From an uncultured Nitrospira sp. (GTDB lineage: Bacteria; Nitrospirota; Nitrospiria; Nitrospirales; Nitrospiraceae): 64,000 nucleotides of DNA. The notes under the pieces are model-generated. The model did not search any database. It had not been told where the DNA came from and saw only the letters and a program-made list of their open reading frames with translations. Every line of letters starts with the position of its first letter. Positions within the stretch are counted from its first letter, which is position 1. Where the stretch lies: positions 62,001-126,000 of the forward strand of contig CABVSR010000004.1 of the NCBI GenBank assembly GCA_902500995.1, in the 5' to 3' direction. Shown here piece after piece: positions 31,499 to 36,514 of this stretch. A program made the translations under genes and the position numbers.

Positions 31499-31978
31499 TT
31501 ACTTGATCATGATCAATTGGCCGCCGGGCTGCTTCGGATTGAGCTGATCCCGGTAGGTCAACGTGTTGCCCTGCGTGGCATTGAACAAATCGCTGGTTGG
31601 GACACCGATGTACTTGGTCTCGCCCGGCTTCAGCACCACTTCCGCCTTGAGCACGAACGGGGATGCGGCGTTGACGGGGTCCGTCATCTGGAAGCCACGG
31701 TCGGAGGAACTGTTATTCGTCACCTTCAGCAAGACCGGACGACCGGGACGGATCTTGAAGTCGATGACCGTCGTCGGCGGATACCAGGCCTTCAAACCGC
31801 CCACTTCCACCGCGAACAACTGCGCATCCACTTCCAGCTCCTTGAACGGCTGGCCCACTACCGAACCGGTCTCGAGGTCGCCCACCTCGACGCCGCCGGC
31901 CTGCAAGGCCCAGGCTCCGGTGGCACTCGACAACAGACTCAATGCACCCAGAAACAACACTGCGCTCCTGCTCAGCAT
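31499..31978 (-). CDS. exported cupredoxin-like protein
   Basis: A 159-residue protein. Start ATG 31978 follows AGGAGG at ideal spacing. The signal peptide ends near residue 24. The domain VIDFKIRPGRPVLLKVTNNS, then SSDRGFQMTDP and AEVVLKPGETKYI has the strand order of cupredoxins and of the EfeO-type cupredoxin module, but lacks the usual Cys/His/Met copper ligands. It may be a structural or weak metal-binding member. It is read 18 bp after the preceding exported-protein gene, together with which it lies behind the repeated promoter element. Confidence 0.7.
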   Translation of the reverse strand: MLSRSAVLFLGALSLLSSATGAWALQAGGVEVGDLETGSVVGQPFKELEVDAQLFAVEVGGLKAWYPPTTVIDFKIRPGRPVLLKVTNNSSSDRGFQMTDPVNAASPFVLKAEVVLKPGETKYIGVPTSDLFNATQGNTLTYRDQLNPKQPGGQLIMIK

Positions 31979-31996
31979 ACACAACCTCCTGTCAGG

Positions 31997-32341
31997 TTAA
32001 AGGGATGAAGACGAACGATGCTCCGGCGCCAGGCACGGGGGAAGACCGGTGCCTTCCAGCACCTGACCGCCGACAATGTGACCATCCACGATGAGAAATA
32101 ACACTTTCATGCGCTTGGTATTCTCTGAAAATTTCCCGCTGGCGATGGCCAGCACTTCATGCGATCCGTCGGGCTGCGGCTGATCCGCTTCGATTTTGAC
32201 ATAGTAGGAATCAAAGCCTTCGAACTCCCTGTTGAAGGCCTGCGCCCGCAACAACCCTTCAAGTGCGTCGTCGGCCCCCCATCCTGTAGTTCCGCCTGCC
32301 AGCACCAAGAACTGGATCACAGCGATGACGGCAATTCGCAT
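31997..32341 (-). CDS. small exported protein of unknown function, 114 aa
   Basis: Start ATG 32341 follows AGGAGAAGC at good spacing. The signal peptide (1-22) is clear. The mature part (EGFDSYYVKIEADQPQPDGS, then VLAIASGKFSENTKRMKVLF) has no recognised domain and ends in a Ser-rich tail. It is the first gene of a two-gene operon with the cupredoxin-like protein and is preceded by the ~32-bp element (here a longer, 41-bp form). Confidence 0.7.
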   Translation of the reverse strand: MRIAVIAVIQFLVLAGGTTGWGADDALEGLLRAQAFNREFEGFDSYYVKIEADQPQPDGSHEVLAIASGKFSENTKRMKVLFLIVDGHIVGGQVLEGTGLPPCLAPEHRSSSSL

Positions 32342-32896: not shown

Positions 32897-33002
32897 ACGC
32901 ATTCCTCCTCTGTGGTGAGAATTCCGTCATCCGGCTGTGTGCATTCTACAGCATTTGAGCGACGGTGTTGAGTAGGGAGCGGTACGAGCGGGCGGGCTAG
33001 CC

Positions 33003-33048
33003 AAAAAAAAAGGTGGGAGAGGGAAGCGTATGGGCGTACGCTTCCCTC
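33003..33048 (-). terminator. intrinsic terminator of the P460-like gene
   Basis: Perfect 12-bp arms GAGGGAAGCGTA and TACGCTTCCCTC with loop TGGGCG. On the minus strand a run of nine T lies seven bases after the stem. It is 58 bp beyond the stop codon of the gene at 33106. Confidence 0.8.
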
Positions 33049-33105
33049 ATCGGAGCTCACTGCGTGGTCAGCGCAGTCCAACCGTCGAGCTCCGTCCACC
33101 GATTC

Positions 33106-33630
33106 TCACACCTGTGGCGGCGTCAACCAGGGCAGGCGACAGATTCCGCACCGCCCCGGGTCCGCCGTCGCCGCCTGGCCGCCGGAATCCCAGCTGGCAT
33201 AGATCCATGATTCGGACTGCTTGGTCGCGTCTCCATCCAGCGTCATCCCGGCGCATTTCTCCATGACAAACACGGCCGGACGAGATCGCTGGGCTCCGGA
33301 GCCTGTCTCACAGGGTTCGGATTCCACGATGAACGCCGTGCCCACGGGAAACGACGAGTCGTCCGGGGTGAGCAGCGCCTTGGGGCAGACATAAAACCGG
33401 AGTTGTTGCGGTCCGCTCTGCGCCTTCACCACCGAGGTCAGATGCGGCCAATCCCGATATCCGAACGGGATCAGGAGGCCCTCCGCCGGAGGAGCCGGCG
33501 ACCACCCGCCGCTGATATCCAGGGCCAGCGCCAGGAGACGCACTACGGCCACACTCAGTCCCGTCTCGTCGTGAGGAGTCGCGGCGATCACTGTCCGTTG
33601 AGGAGATACCTCCGCACACACAACCGGCAT
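33106..33630 (-). CDS. degenerate cytochrome P460-like protein, CxxCR
   Basis: A 174-residue protein whose order of motifs matches cytochrome P460: GYRDWPHLTSVV, RFYVCPKA, FPVGTAFIVESE, PAVFVMEKCAG, SWIYASWDSGG. The haem motif of the family (CxxCH) is replaced by C161-GI-C164-R165, so the axial histidine is missing. There is no signal peptide (MPVVCAEVSPQRTVIA), although P460 proteins are periplasmic. Start ATG 33630 follows AAGGAAGG. The intact frame argues for a retained function, perhaps with another ligand or none. A true P460 gene lies 2 kb away. Confidence 0.65.
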   Translation of the reverse strand: MPVVCAEVSPQRTVIAATPHDETGLSVAVVRLLALALDISGGWSPAPPAEGLLIPFGYRDWPHLTSVVKAQSGPQQLRFYVCPKALLTPDDSSFPVGTAFIVESEPCETGSGAQRSRPAVFVMEKCAGMTLDGDATKQSESWIYASWDSGGQAATADPGRCGICRLPWLTPPQV

Positions 33631-33645
33631 GCAACACCTTCCTTT

Positions 33646-33852
33646 CTAACAGGATGCGGAAAAAGTCCGCCAGCGGCGTTCTCGCATCAGTCAGAGGCTC
33701 ACCGTACGGCACGAGTACGATTCGCCTCTCCGTTCGCTGCGGCCTTGCTGGACGGCCTTTTTGCGTATCCTGCGGGCTATTCTGGGGCGAGATGGCCCCT
33801 GTGTGAAACGCGACGCATGACGCAATAATCAAGTTTTTCCGCAGCCTGCTAA
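33646..33852. mobile_element. 207-bp MITE-like element, copy 1
   Basis: Terminal inverted repeats CTAACAGGATGCGGAAAAA and TTTTTCCGCAGCCTGCTA. The first ~130 bp (GTCCGCCAGCGGCGTTCTCG, GAGTACGATTCGCC, GGCCTTGCTGGACGGCC) are nearly identical to the element at 37581, and the length is the same. There is no coding capacity. The interior shares the GTACG core of the family-1 repeats. Confidence 0.75.
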
Positions 33853-33865
33853 GCGTGACACAAAT

Positions 33866-35023
33866 TTATGGGCTGACGTCTCCGCGCGCCGTCCCGGGGC
33901 GATCGACCGCGCTCTGCTTCACCGCGCCCGTCTGGGACCTGGCGCGAATCGAGGCGGCGCGCGCCGCGAACAATCCGGCTTCAACCGGCCGGCCGATGGT
34001 ATCGAGCACCAGGGCATAGCGTTCCGCCAACAGCCCGACAGTGGGATGCTGCAGGCCGAGGTGTTGCTGCTGGATCACCAGGGCCCGCTCGTACAGAAGC
34101 TGCGCCTGGGCCATCAACCCCTGCTGATCGGCGAGAAACGCCATATTCCCGACGATCGTGCCGGCGAGAGCGCTCTGCGGGCCCGTCACCCGCTCAGCAA
34201 GCGTCACGGCCTCATCAAAATACCGTTGGGCGGAGGCATAGAGGCCTTCAGCCTGGTACAGACAGGCGATGTTGTTGAGACTCATGACCACGGCCGGGTG
34301 TGTGCTTCCGAAGTGCAGCCGGCGCACCTTCAACGCCCGTTCATACAGCGGTTCCGCCCAGGTATACATCCCGCGGCCCTTGTACAGCGCCGCCAGATTA
34401 TTCAGCACCGGCCCCAAATCGACATGCTCGGGGCCCCATGCCTGCTCCATGAGCGTGAGCGCCAGCTGGTAGGCCGATTCGGCCGCCGTCTCTCGTCCCT
34501 GCTTGCGATAGAGTTCGGCCAGATTGTTCAAGCTGATCGCGACATCGGGATGTGCGTAACCCAGCGTCTTGCGCTCGATGTCCAACACCCGCTCGTACAA
34601 CGGCTCCGCCGTGGCCCAATCACCCCTGGCATGGGCAATCTCCGCAAGGTTATTCAAGGCGGCCGCGACATCTTCATGTTCGGGCCCTAGCTGGGATTCC
34701 CACAGGCCGAGCGCGCGCCGATAGAGCGATTCGGCCTCGGTGAGCCGCCCCTGGTCGTGGTACAGCAATCCCAGCTGATTCGCGGCCAGCGCCACTGGGG
34801 CCTCGTCGCCTCCCGTGTGCTCGGCTTCCTGCAGGGCTTGCGTCAGGAGCGACTCGGCCTGCCTGTAATGCGCCGCTTCGCGGGCCTTCACCCCCGCCTC
34901 GAAACCTTGTCTCCAGCCGTCCAGATCCGCGGCCCCGGTTCCCGCCGGGACGCAGAGGACTGCGAGCAGGAGCAGGTTCAAGACCGCTCTTCGAGAGCGC
35001 CGTTGCGTCATGCAATCATCCAT
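33866..35023 (-). CDS. exported TPR protein (kinesin-light-chain type repeats)
   Basis: A 385-residue protein; ATG 35023 or 35011. A signal peptide (VLNLLLLAVLCVPAGTGA) is followed by about six 42-residue TPR units of the type LNNLAELYRKQGRETAAESA and YERALKVRRLHFGSTHPAVV. Such repeats form protein-binding superhelices. Proteins of this form are frequent in Nitrospirota. The partner is unknown; it is located between a MITE-like element and a ~90-bp direct repeat. Confidence 0.85.
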   Translation of the reverse strand: MDDCMTQRRSRRAVLNLLLLAVLCVPAGTGAADLDGWRQGFEAGVKAREAAHYRQAESLLTQALQEAEHTGGDEAPVALAANQLGLLYHDQGRLTEAESLYRRALGLWESQLGPEHEDVAAALNNLAEIAHARGDWATAEPLYERVLDIERKTLGYAHPDVAISLNNLAELYRKQGRETAAESAYQLALTLMEQAWGPEHVDLGPVLNNLAALYKGRGMYTWAEPLYERALKVRRLHFGSTHPAVVMSLNNIACLYQAEGLYASAQRYFDEAVTLAERVTGPQSALAGTIVGNMAFLADQQGLMAQAQLLYERALVIQQQHLGLQHPTVGLLAERYALVLDTIGRPVEAGLFAARAASIRARSQTGAVKQSAVDRPGTARGDVSP

Positions 35024-35094
35024 GATGGGGACAGTCCTTCAAGTTTCTCGATCGACTCCCTGCGTTCAATGACGATTCCATTCACCCTCCCAAT

Positions 35095-35184
35095 GACCGG
35101 CCCCAAGGGCCGGGGTGAAGGGGGAGGCCATCCCGTTCACCCCGGAGAGGCAGATCCTGAAGAAGGGTGCACAACCCCAGGATC
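35095..35184. repeat. direct repeat, copy A, downstream of cytochrome P460
   Basis: A ~90-bp sequence that begins GACCGGCCCCAAGGGCCGG and ends GAAGGGTGCACAACCCCAGG. Copy B at 35797-35888 is about 85-90% identical in the same orientation. Copy A starts 22 bases after the P460 stop codon. Confidence 0.85.
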
Positions 35185-35205
35185 TGAGGGAACCGATGCC
35201 GCACG

Positions 35206-35748
35206 TCAGTGGGCCTTCTGGCTTTGCGCGCAGAATTCATCCACTCGATGCACAAAATCTTTTTGCGCCAACGGCGCGTGGCAGGCCCGGCATTTCGTAA
35301 ATTCTTCAGCCAGCGCCTTTCCGTCCGGACCGTAGGCACCAAACACCCAGTTGCCGTTCTTCAGATTGTCCGGCACGTCCTGCCCCCACCCGTCGTTCTT
35401 TTCCATCACAAAGACTTTCGCCAGATCGCCCTTGACCAATTTCCCGTCGGCCCCTTTCAAGAGCGTCTCTCCTTCGGACTTGGCTTTGTACAACTCCATG
35501 ACCAGCCTGGTGCCGTTCGGAAAGACTCCGGCCGGACAGGCTTTGGCGCCGGGATTCACATAAAGCTCACGGACCTGCTTGGTATCCTCCCGTTGCACGC
35601 CGCTCAGGAACTTCGGCCAACTCGCATAGTCGGCCGGAAGCGCCACCTCGCCGTCCTTCGGGGAAGCGGCCTGCACCAGGTTGGCCGTCAAACCGCCGCA
35701 ACAGCCCAGACTGACGACCACCGCCACCGCACATATCTGCTTGATCAT
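35206..35748 (-). CDS. cytochrome P460
   Basis: A 180-residue haem protein; ATG 35748 is favoured by the AGAGGA site, with ATG 35754 possible. The signal peptide ends near residue 28. The domain matches the P460 family (LPADYASWPKFLSGV, RELYVNPGAKACP, FPNGTRLVMELYKA, AKVFVMEKNDGWG, NWVFGAYGPDG), and the haem is bound through C153-RA-C156-H157. P460 enzymes oxidise hydroxylamine to N2O or NO, using a Lys- or tyrosine-crosslinked haem. In the window it is flanked by ~90-bp direct repeats. Confidence 0.9.
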   Translation of the reverse strand: MIKQICAVAVVVSLGCCGGLTANLVQAASPKDGEVALPADYASWPKFLSGVQREDTKQVRELYVNPGAKACPAGVFPNGTRLVMELYKAKSEGETLLKGADGKLVKGDLAKVFVMEKNDGWGQDVPDNLKNGNWVFGAYGPDGKALAEEFTKCRACHAPLAQKDFVHRVDEFCAQSQKAH

Positions 35749-35796
35749 GGACATGTTCCTCTCTTCATCAGGCCTGGCGCTGCGTTCATCGTTCCC

Positions 35797-35888
35797 GACC
35801 GGCCCCCCGAGGGGCCGGGGTGGAGGGGGAGGCCATCCCACCCACCCCGGGGAGGCAGATCCTGAAGAAGGGTGCACAACCCAGGATC
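35797..35888. repeat. direct repeat, copy B, upstream of cytochrome P460
   Basis: A ~92-bp match to copy A (35095), with hairpin CCGGCCCC-CCGA-GGGGCCGG near its start and GAAGGGTGCACAACCCAGG near its end. It lies ~50 bp upstream of the P460 start codon, so it may contain regulatory sequence. Confidence 0.85.
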
Positions 35889-35908
35889 CGTCTTGAATCG
35901 CTCATCGC

Positions 35909-36157
35909 TTATCGTTTGGCCACCCGCCGCCCGCCGAGCGGCACCGCCTTCAAATGCGGCACCGGCTCGTTCGGACGGGGATCAGTCCGGTTCCCATCCA
36001 CGAGGGAGGTCACGGAGAGACGAAAAATCCGGAGACTGCCGCCGCCGATTTTCGTCGCTTCGAGACGTCCTTCATCGATCCATCGGTAAATGGTCCACTT
36101 ACTGACTTTGAGCAATTGCGCGGCTTCCTTCACGCGCAACAGGGGTTGATCGAGCAT
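35909..36157 (-). CDS. helix-turn-helix protein (excisionase/MerR-like)
   Basis: An 82-residue protein. The N-terminal winged helix (LLRVKEAAQLLKVSKWTIYR, then WIDEGRLEATKIGG and LRIFR) is the HTH_17 domain of excisionases and small regulators. The C-terminal 35 residues are basic and Pro rich, without a known domain. It sits next to the direct repeat flanking P460, consistent with a mobile or formerly mobile segment, but it may be a chromosomal regulator. Confidence 0.85.
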   Translation of the reverse strand: MLDQPLLRVKEAAQLLKVSKWTIYRWIDEGRLEATKIGGGSLRIFRLSVTSLVDGNRTDPRPNEPVPHLKAVPLGGRRVAKR

Positions 36158-36514
36158 CTCGGTCCCTTTTTTGTCTTGGCGGTGGATAGGAGCGGTCCGT
36201 TACCGCTCCTCACCCGGCTGCAGGAAGGGGCACGAGCCTCCCGCACAACCAGGTCCACCATGCACGACCGACTTGAATCCATCACGAGTTTCGCTGAGAA
36301 CCGGCAGCGGAGGTCACAGAGAGGGCGCCTGCGCTGCCGGCCAGTCCAGGGTAGAGGGCAATCCGACCCTGGACTCAGAGCGTCGAGTGAATAGTTCGGG
36401 CCGAACGCCCGATCGAGGCGGCTCACAGTATGGAGCAGGAACCGTGCAGGTTGACCTGCACGGACCGGCTATCCGGAGTTGCTGTGAAGAAAGGCGACGC
36501 GCGCCCCGCCCGAA
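36158..36514. other. 357-bp intergenic region with three hairpins
   Basis: No gene is seen. Hairpins: GGAGCGGT / ACCGCTCC at 36189-36209; AGTCCAGGGT / ACCCTGGACT at about 36343-36376; CCGTGCAGGT / ACCTGCACGG at 36442-36463 with a two-base loop. The last is close to the end of the next gene on the minus strand, but no T-tract follows. Promoters for the HTH gene may lie here; none is clear. Confidence 0.55.

Follow-up and report, generated by a model that had tools for sequence, protein, structure and literature searches.

All members of the cytochrome P460/c'-beta superfamily known so far are exported haem proteins with a part in nitrogen metabolism. The 64,000-nucleotide stretch of Nitrospira DNA analysed here (the window) carries a gene, P460L, the product of which was described in the initial annotation as having the motif order of cytochrome P460 without the haem histidine and without an export signal. 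Nitrospira comprises the principal nitrite-oxidising bacteria and the comammox organisms, and a conserved haem-less, non-exported branch in this genus would show that the P460/c'-beta fold can be used without haem. Is P460L a genuine member of the superfamily, has it lost the haem, and what could such a protein do in the cell?

The gene occupies positions 33106..33630 of the minus strand, and the coordinates, strand and 174-aa translation given in the initial annotation are all exact. The Shine-Dalgarno sequence AGGAAGG (33637..33643, minus strand) precedes the ATG at 33630 by 6 nt, a spacing repeated in the relatives; an in-frame stop lies six codons upstream of the ATG. Close to the C-terminus, which reads CGICRLPWLTPPQV, the translation and the family alignment place CGICR (residues 161–165; 33136..33150, minus strand) where CxxCH would stand: in C161-G-I-C164-R165, Arg165 takes the axial histidine position of cytochromes c. 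An identical protein is encoded by a metagenome-assembled genome labelled Nitrospira defluvii NOB1, and the orthologue of 'Candidatus Nitrospira defluvii' FP929003 is 67% identical to that of the window.

The claimed relationship to P460, first read from the order of motifs, is borne out by Pfam, hhalign and the predicted fold, which all agree, and P460L is a paralogue family of the P460/c'-beta superfamily beyond chance. While the sole Pfam match of the window protein, PF16694 (E=1.4e-5, 25.9 bits), falls 1.1 bits below the curated cut-off of 27 bits, 24 of 25 P460L members match this profile at E<=0.01, with a best value of 1.2e-7. Profile alignment by hhalign of P460L with the CxxCH paralogues of the same bacteria (99.3%, E 3e-20) covers 144 columns and spans the region from the N-terminal helix to CxxC. 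When a mixed alignment of P460L and CxxCH paralogues (A2) was used as a profile against the PDB, the top match was the cytochrome c'-beta of N. europaea (1.8e-10), followed by further members of the same superfamily. Structure prediction, too, yields a P460 fold and not another one: the AlphaFold model (mean pLDDT 73, pTM 0.73) consists of a helix at residues 19–40 and five strands, which form, in this predicted model, the five-stranded antiparallel sheet of the superfamily. The first seven Foldseek matches of the model are P460 or c'-beta proteins, as are all of the best 17 entries found by VIA-align (Z 5.1–7.0, next family 4.2); the model itself is of moderate confidence and these matches, at Z 5–7, are of medium strength. 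The closest known protein by PDB profile match is the c'-beta-Met cytochrome of N. europaea (NeCP-beta, PDB 7s5o), which shares with P460L the fold, the FVMEK-W core and the lack of a cross-linking lysine; unlike P460L, it is exported and carries haem c on a CxxCH motif. NeP460 (2je2) and McP460 (6hiu) have a five-stranded sheet like that predicted for P460L (Z 5.7–7.0). In cytochrome P460 the haem is cross-linked to a lysine, and the hydroxylamine-oxidising members have a distal carboxylate, whereas P460L has Val102 at the position of the cross-linking lysine or its Met/Phe substitutes and Phe121 at that of the carboxylate, in addition to lacking the haem histidine; it is thus not a cytochrome P460 proper.

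Is the loss of the haem site a peculiarity of one gene? A search for CxxCR homologues recovered a family and not an oddity: P460L orthologues, 48–100% identical, are present in 24 of the 29 genomes of the genus Nitrospira (many of the compared genomes being drafts), and more distant ones occur in scattered other genera of the same family. None of the P460L sequences has CxxCH with its axial histidine; they carry CxxCR or no CxxC at all, which extends the replacement by Arg165, correctly noted for the window protein, to a loss of the histidine throughout. Within the genus all P460L proteins share the ending CG[IV]CR, with C161 and C164 invariant and C82 and C126 nearly so. CxxCR was rejected as a functional motif of the whole family, since outside the genus the motif reads CGVCRLP, CGLRRLP, WGLRRLP, CGIRHLP or CRACA, or is wholly lost. 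Despite the decay of CxxC, the sequences there keep the motif V-V-R-L-L-A-[IVL]-A-[LIV] of the helix, and often also the terminal R-L-P, which indicates that the haem is very probably gone from P460L. A tree built from 72 domains sets P460L apart from the CxxCH proteins, the sole misplaced row (L044) being a frameshifted cytochrome. No P460L relatives were found in viral contigs.

With the functional motif gone, P460L might be taken for a cytochrome pseudogene in decay. This is contradicted by purifying selection on the protein, as judged from a median dN/dS of 0.21 over 134 pairs together with the divergence of third codon positions (about 0.43–0.65 pairwise identity); moreover, the reading frame is open in every genome, the start site is conserved and the gene is widespread in the genus. 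P460L is a functional gene, and the pseudogene reading is extremely unlikely. Haem that is still attached by one or two thioether bonds, with a non-histidine ligand, is also very improbable for this protein. While the CxxC retained in the genus would allow such attachment, the cytochrome c machinery works outside the cytosol and P460L has no signal peptide, both cysteines are gone in other genera, and arginine is not a usual axial haem ligand. The strict retention of CxxC within the genus could instead reflect a remaining cofactor or metal site: C161 and C164 with C82 and C126 might provide a site for Cu(I) or Zn, or a redox disulfide, in a cytosolic protein that senses the metal handled by the island in which the gene lies. 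The conservation of these four cysteines and the neighbouring genes for a small metal-binding protein (SMBP), a cupredoxin-like protein and CopA speak for this role, which is plausible within the genus; in several other genera the cysteines have given way to CGxRRLP or WGxRRLP or have disappeared from an otherwise retained protein, making a thiol or metal function impossible for members without them and rather unlikely as the role of P460L.

The statement that P460L has no signal peptide holds for the whole family. In the genus, the start codon of the orthologues lies behind the same Shine-Dalgarno sequence with no signal-peptide coding sequence upstream, and, judged by start-codon context and charge pattern, neither a signal peptide nor a lipobox is present in any relative; all CxxCH paralogues readable to the N-terminus have one or the other. 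The P460L protein has a polar N-terminal arm of 25–30 residues and a helix at residues 19–40 (33511..33576, minus strand), which contains VAVVRLLALALDIS and was delimited by paralogue alignment, model and hydropathy. In the CxxCH paralogue the aligned region is the signal peptide, which suggests that the helix may be a converted signal peptide. It contains Arg31, conserved in 90% or more of P460L sequences, and usually Asp38; since these conserved charges break the helix, the protein most likely stays in the cytosol. The cytosolic location, taken as given in the initial annotation, is nevertheless weakened by the fairly hydrophobic character of the helix (19-residue mean hydropathy 1.2–1.7, overlapping between the P460L and CxxCH groups) and by its alignment with a signal peptide, which leave room for a membrane-anchored form. 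In that case residues 19–40 would serve as a signal-anchor that is not cleaved, and the domain without haem would be periplasmic like the other proteins of the island, every other structural gene of which encodes an exported product; in some species the hydrophobic stretch does reach a mean of 1.6–1.7. Given that the core is interrupted by Arg31 and frequently by Asp38, that the uncharged stretch leading up to Asp38 spans just some six residues (LLALAL), that the N-terminal arm is long and that AlphaFold predicts a helix there with good confidence, we regard membrane targeting as rather improbable. Taking both properties together, we consider it likely that P460L is haem-less and not exported.

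P460L lies in a conserved island of mostly exported products, the gene order of which was established from 18 species-level loci with additional contexts. The arrangement seen most often in the genus runs DUF2946-like, HTH (excisionase family), cytochrome (when present; its presence varies among loci), TPR, P460L, the RNA element A described below, SMBP, an exported protein of unknown family (DUFx), cupredoxin-like, Slp (on the opposite strand), DsbA-like and CopA. In the window, the conserved neighbours, all on the minus strand, are the excisionase-family HTH DNA-binding protein (35909..36157), the exported TPR protein (33866..35023), the exported SMBP (PF16785; 32594..32902), the exported DUFx (31997..32341) and the exported cupredoxin-like protein (31499..31984; weak match, E 0.15). 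Other genera have two modules, P460L-TPR-SMBP and HTH-P460L-element A-DUFx-cupredoxin. In the window species an inserted repeat of about 200 nt (33645..33855, minus strand; 42 matches in the genome) separates the TPR gene from P460L, where most relatives have a gap of about 38 nt. In other genera, second P460L paralogues with no element A behind them stand beside TPR (and SMBP) genes at L113 16641–17069, L109 13919–14395 and L049 8823–9227.

What was called a normal P460 gene 2 kb away is a nearby exported CxxCH paralogue (35206..35754, minus strand; CRACH haem motif), identified by Pfam, alignment and a residue table; it lies 1.6 kb from P460L, and its assignment as normal P460 did not hold. 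At the position of the cross-linking lysine, as judged by the residue table of P460/c'-beta cross-link positions in the review PMC11928373, it has a methionine aligned with Met79 of N. europaea c'-beta. By residue, the neighbour would therefore be a cytochrome of the c'-beta-Met type and not a classical P460, and hydroxylamine oxidation should not be assumed for it. The GTG start listed for this reading frame, at 35877, reads through a second RNA element, element B (GWPPPPPRPLGG), and the gene in fact starts near 35754. On either side of the cytochrome gene stands a direct copy of element B (window 35089–35908), and loci without the cytochrome keep one copy, so the gene seems to have been lost by recombination between the copies. 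P460L is kept in 13 genomes of the genus that have no intact cytochrome match, some of these being incomplete drafts, and is therefore not merely a subunit of that cytochrome. A role for P460L as adaptor of the neighbouring cytochrome was accordingly lowered, since P460L outlasts the loss of the cytochrome and two genomes of the genus have the cytochrome without P460L.

Directly after the P460L stop codon lies element A, an RNA element of about 95 nt (33008..33107, minus strand) delineated by conservation, folding and covariation; it is predicted to form a three-way junction of a closing stem and two hairpins (-50 kcal/mol, z -5.3). The element is 93–100% identical to that of the window in all 24 genomes of the genus with P460L, with a near-invariant apical core of 24 nt and sharp borders on both sides, where the end of the coding region and the DNA further downstream have diverged. 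It is present as a single copy in the window and in most genomes, and is absent from four of the five genomes of the genus that lack P460L. The fifth (G001) retains a truncated element A, which is a deletion remnant; at L106 4357–4456 of this genome it is joined to the beginning of the following gene, P460L and SMBP being gone. Across 28 sequences 97.4% of cells pair, and seven pairs show two-sided changes (21 such cells as compared to 6.3 in shuffles), while slid controls collapse. Rfam gave only chance-level scores for element A, far below gathering, and no match at E<=1 over 32900–36300; the exact core was not found in viral contigs.

This structure bears on the strong terminator that the initial annotation had assigned to P460L. 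The 3' hairpin is real but is one arm of the conserved structured RNA, and apart from the window species only a few relatives have a U-run after it. The strong hairpin with its T-runs in the window species could mean that element A is no more than an intrinsic terminator, or a palindromic DNA site for the HTH protein, and not a functional RNA. We consider this unlikely: most species have no U-run, the hairpin is separated from the tail by the paired closing strand, the terminator scan did not call the element, the apical core barely varies, and compensation includes, besides the two-sided changes, many pair changes that pass through G-U, which favours an RNA over a DNA palindrome. As to the transcript that carries element A, the next gene in the genus has its own promoter-like sequence behind the element (in the window the sigma-70-like TCAACA-17-TAGAAT, 32943..32971, minus strand), so element A is most likely part of the P460L transcript or an sRNA. 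A promoter for the element within the end of the P460L gene, sought by eye, was dismissed because the TTGAC-like stretch there is not conserved. Genomes G029 and G276 have element A without P460L, and in G216 the two stand apart, which indicates that the element has a role of its own.

What, then, might P460L do? In Nitrospiraceae this paralogue family keeps the predicted five-stranded sheet; its axial histidine is lost (Arg165), and several genera have lost the two haem cysteines as well. We propose that the former signal-peptide region has turned into an N-terminal helix broken by conserved charges, keeping the protein in the cytosol, where it could bind or regulate, as a partner, the exported metal-binding and redox proteins of the island (SMBP, TPR, cupredoxin-like, c'-beta-Met cytochrome, DsbA-like and CopA). 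P460L is most likely a cytosolic protein without catalytic activity that belongs to a periplasmic metal/nitrosative-stress island. That it acts more specifically as a cytosolic regulator or sensor is possible but doubtful, and that such a regulator works with element A, for example by binding it and controlling expression of the island, is quite improbable. The next neighbours of the P460L model after the P460 family in VIA-align include coat proteins of single-stranded RNA phages, in which a beta-sheet dimer binds RNA hairpins; this likeness, at Z about 4, may be just a common arrangement. Since two genomes have element A without P460L, binding of P460L cannot in any case be the only role of the element. 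Like pseudoenzymes in general (PMC5106787), P460L is a member of a catalytic family that has stayed under selection after loss of the active site. We found no haem-less member of the P460 superfamily in the literature searched, and none is mentioned in the searched parts of the review PMC11928373.

Element B is a covarying two-hairpin RNA, found by motif, covariation and phylum search, of which the window holds two copies on the minus strand: copy 1 behind the HTH gene (35794..35908) and copy 2 behind the cytochrome gene (35089..35203). Its near-invariant core, GTTG[TC]GCAC[CT]CTTCT, reads GTTGTGCACCCTTCTTC in the window. Nine pairs covary on both sides, with 53 such cells as compared to 15.6 in shuffles. 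RNA models R1 and R2 were searched within 296 Nitrospirota genomes; element B was found in 45 of these, in one or two copies each, all belonging to the same family as the P460L carriers, and in the 30 loci inspected it adjoins genes of the P460L island. Element B has no match in Rfam, and the literature searched holds no report of either element. Absent from Rfam and limited to one family in the phylum sample, elements A and B are candidate new regulatory RNAs of environmentally important bacteria. A third two-hairpin element, A', with the apical sequence UGACCU(A)CCUCC, stands behind the cytochrome genes of L034, L041, L112, L113 and L049. We rejected A' as a genome-wide family: many sites elsewhere with its apical motif TGACCTACCTCC resemble a gene start and its Shine-Dalgarno sequence read in antisense, and the remaining sites in several genomes fold differently. 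The element sits behind P460-type genes in several genera, where it gives weak matches to model R1.
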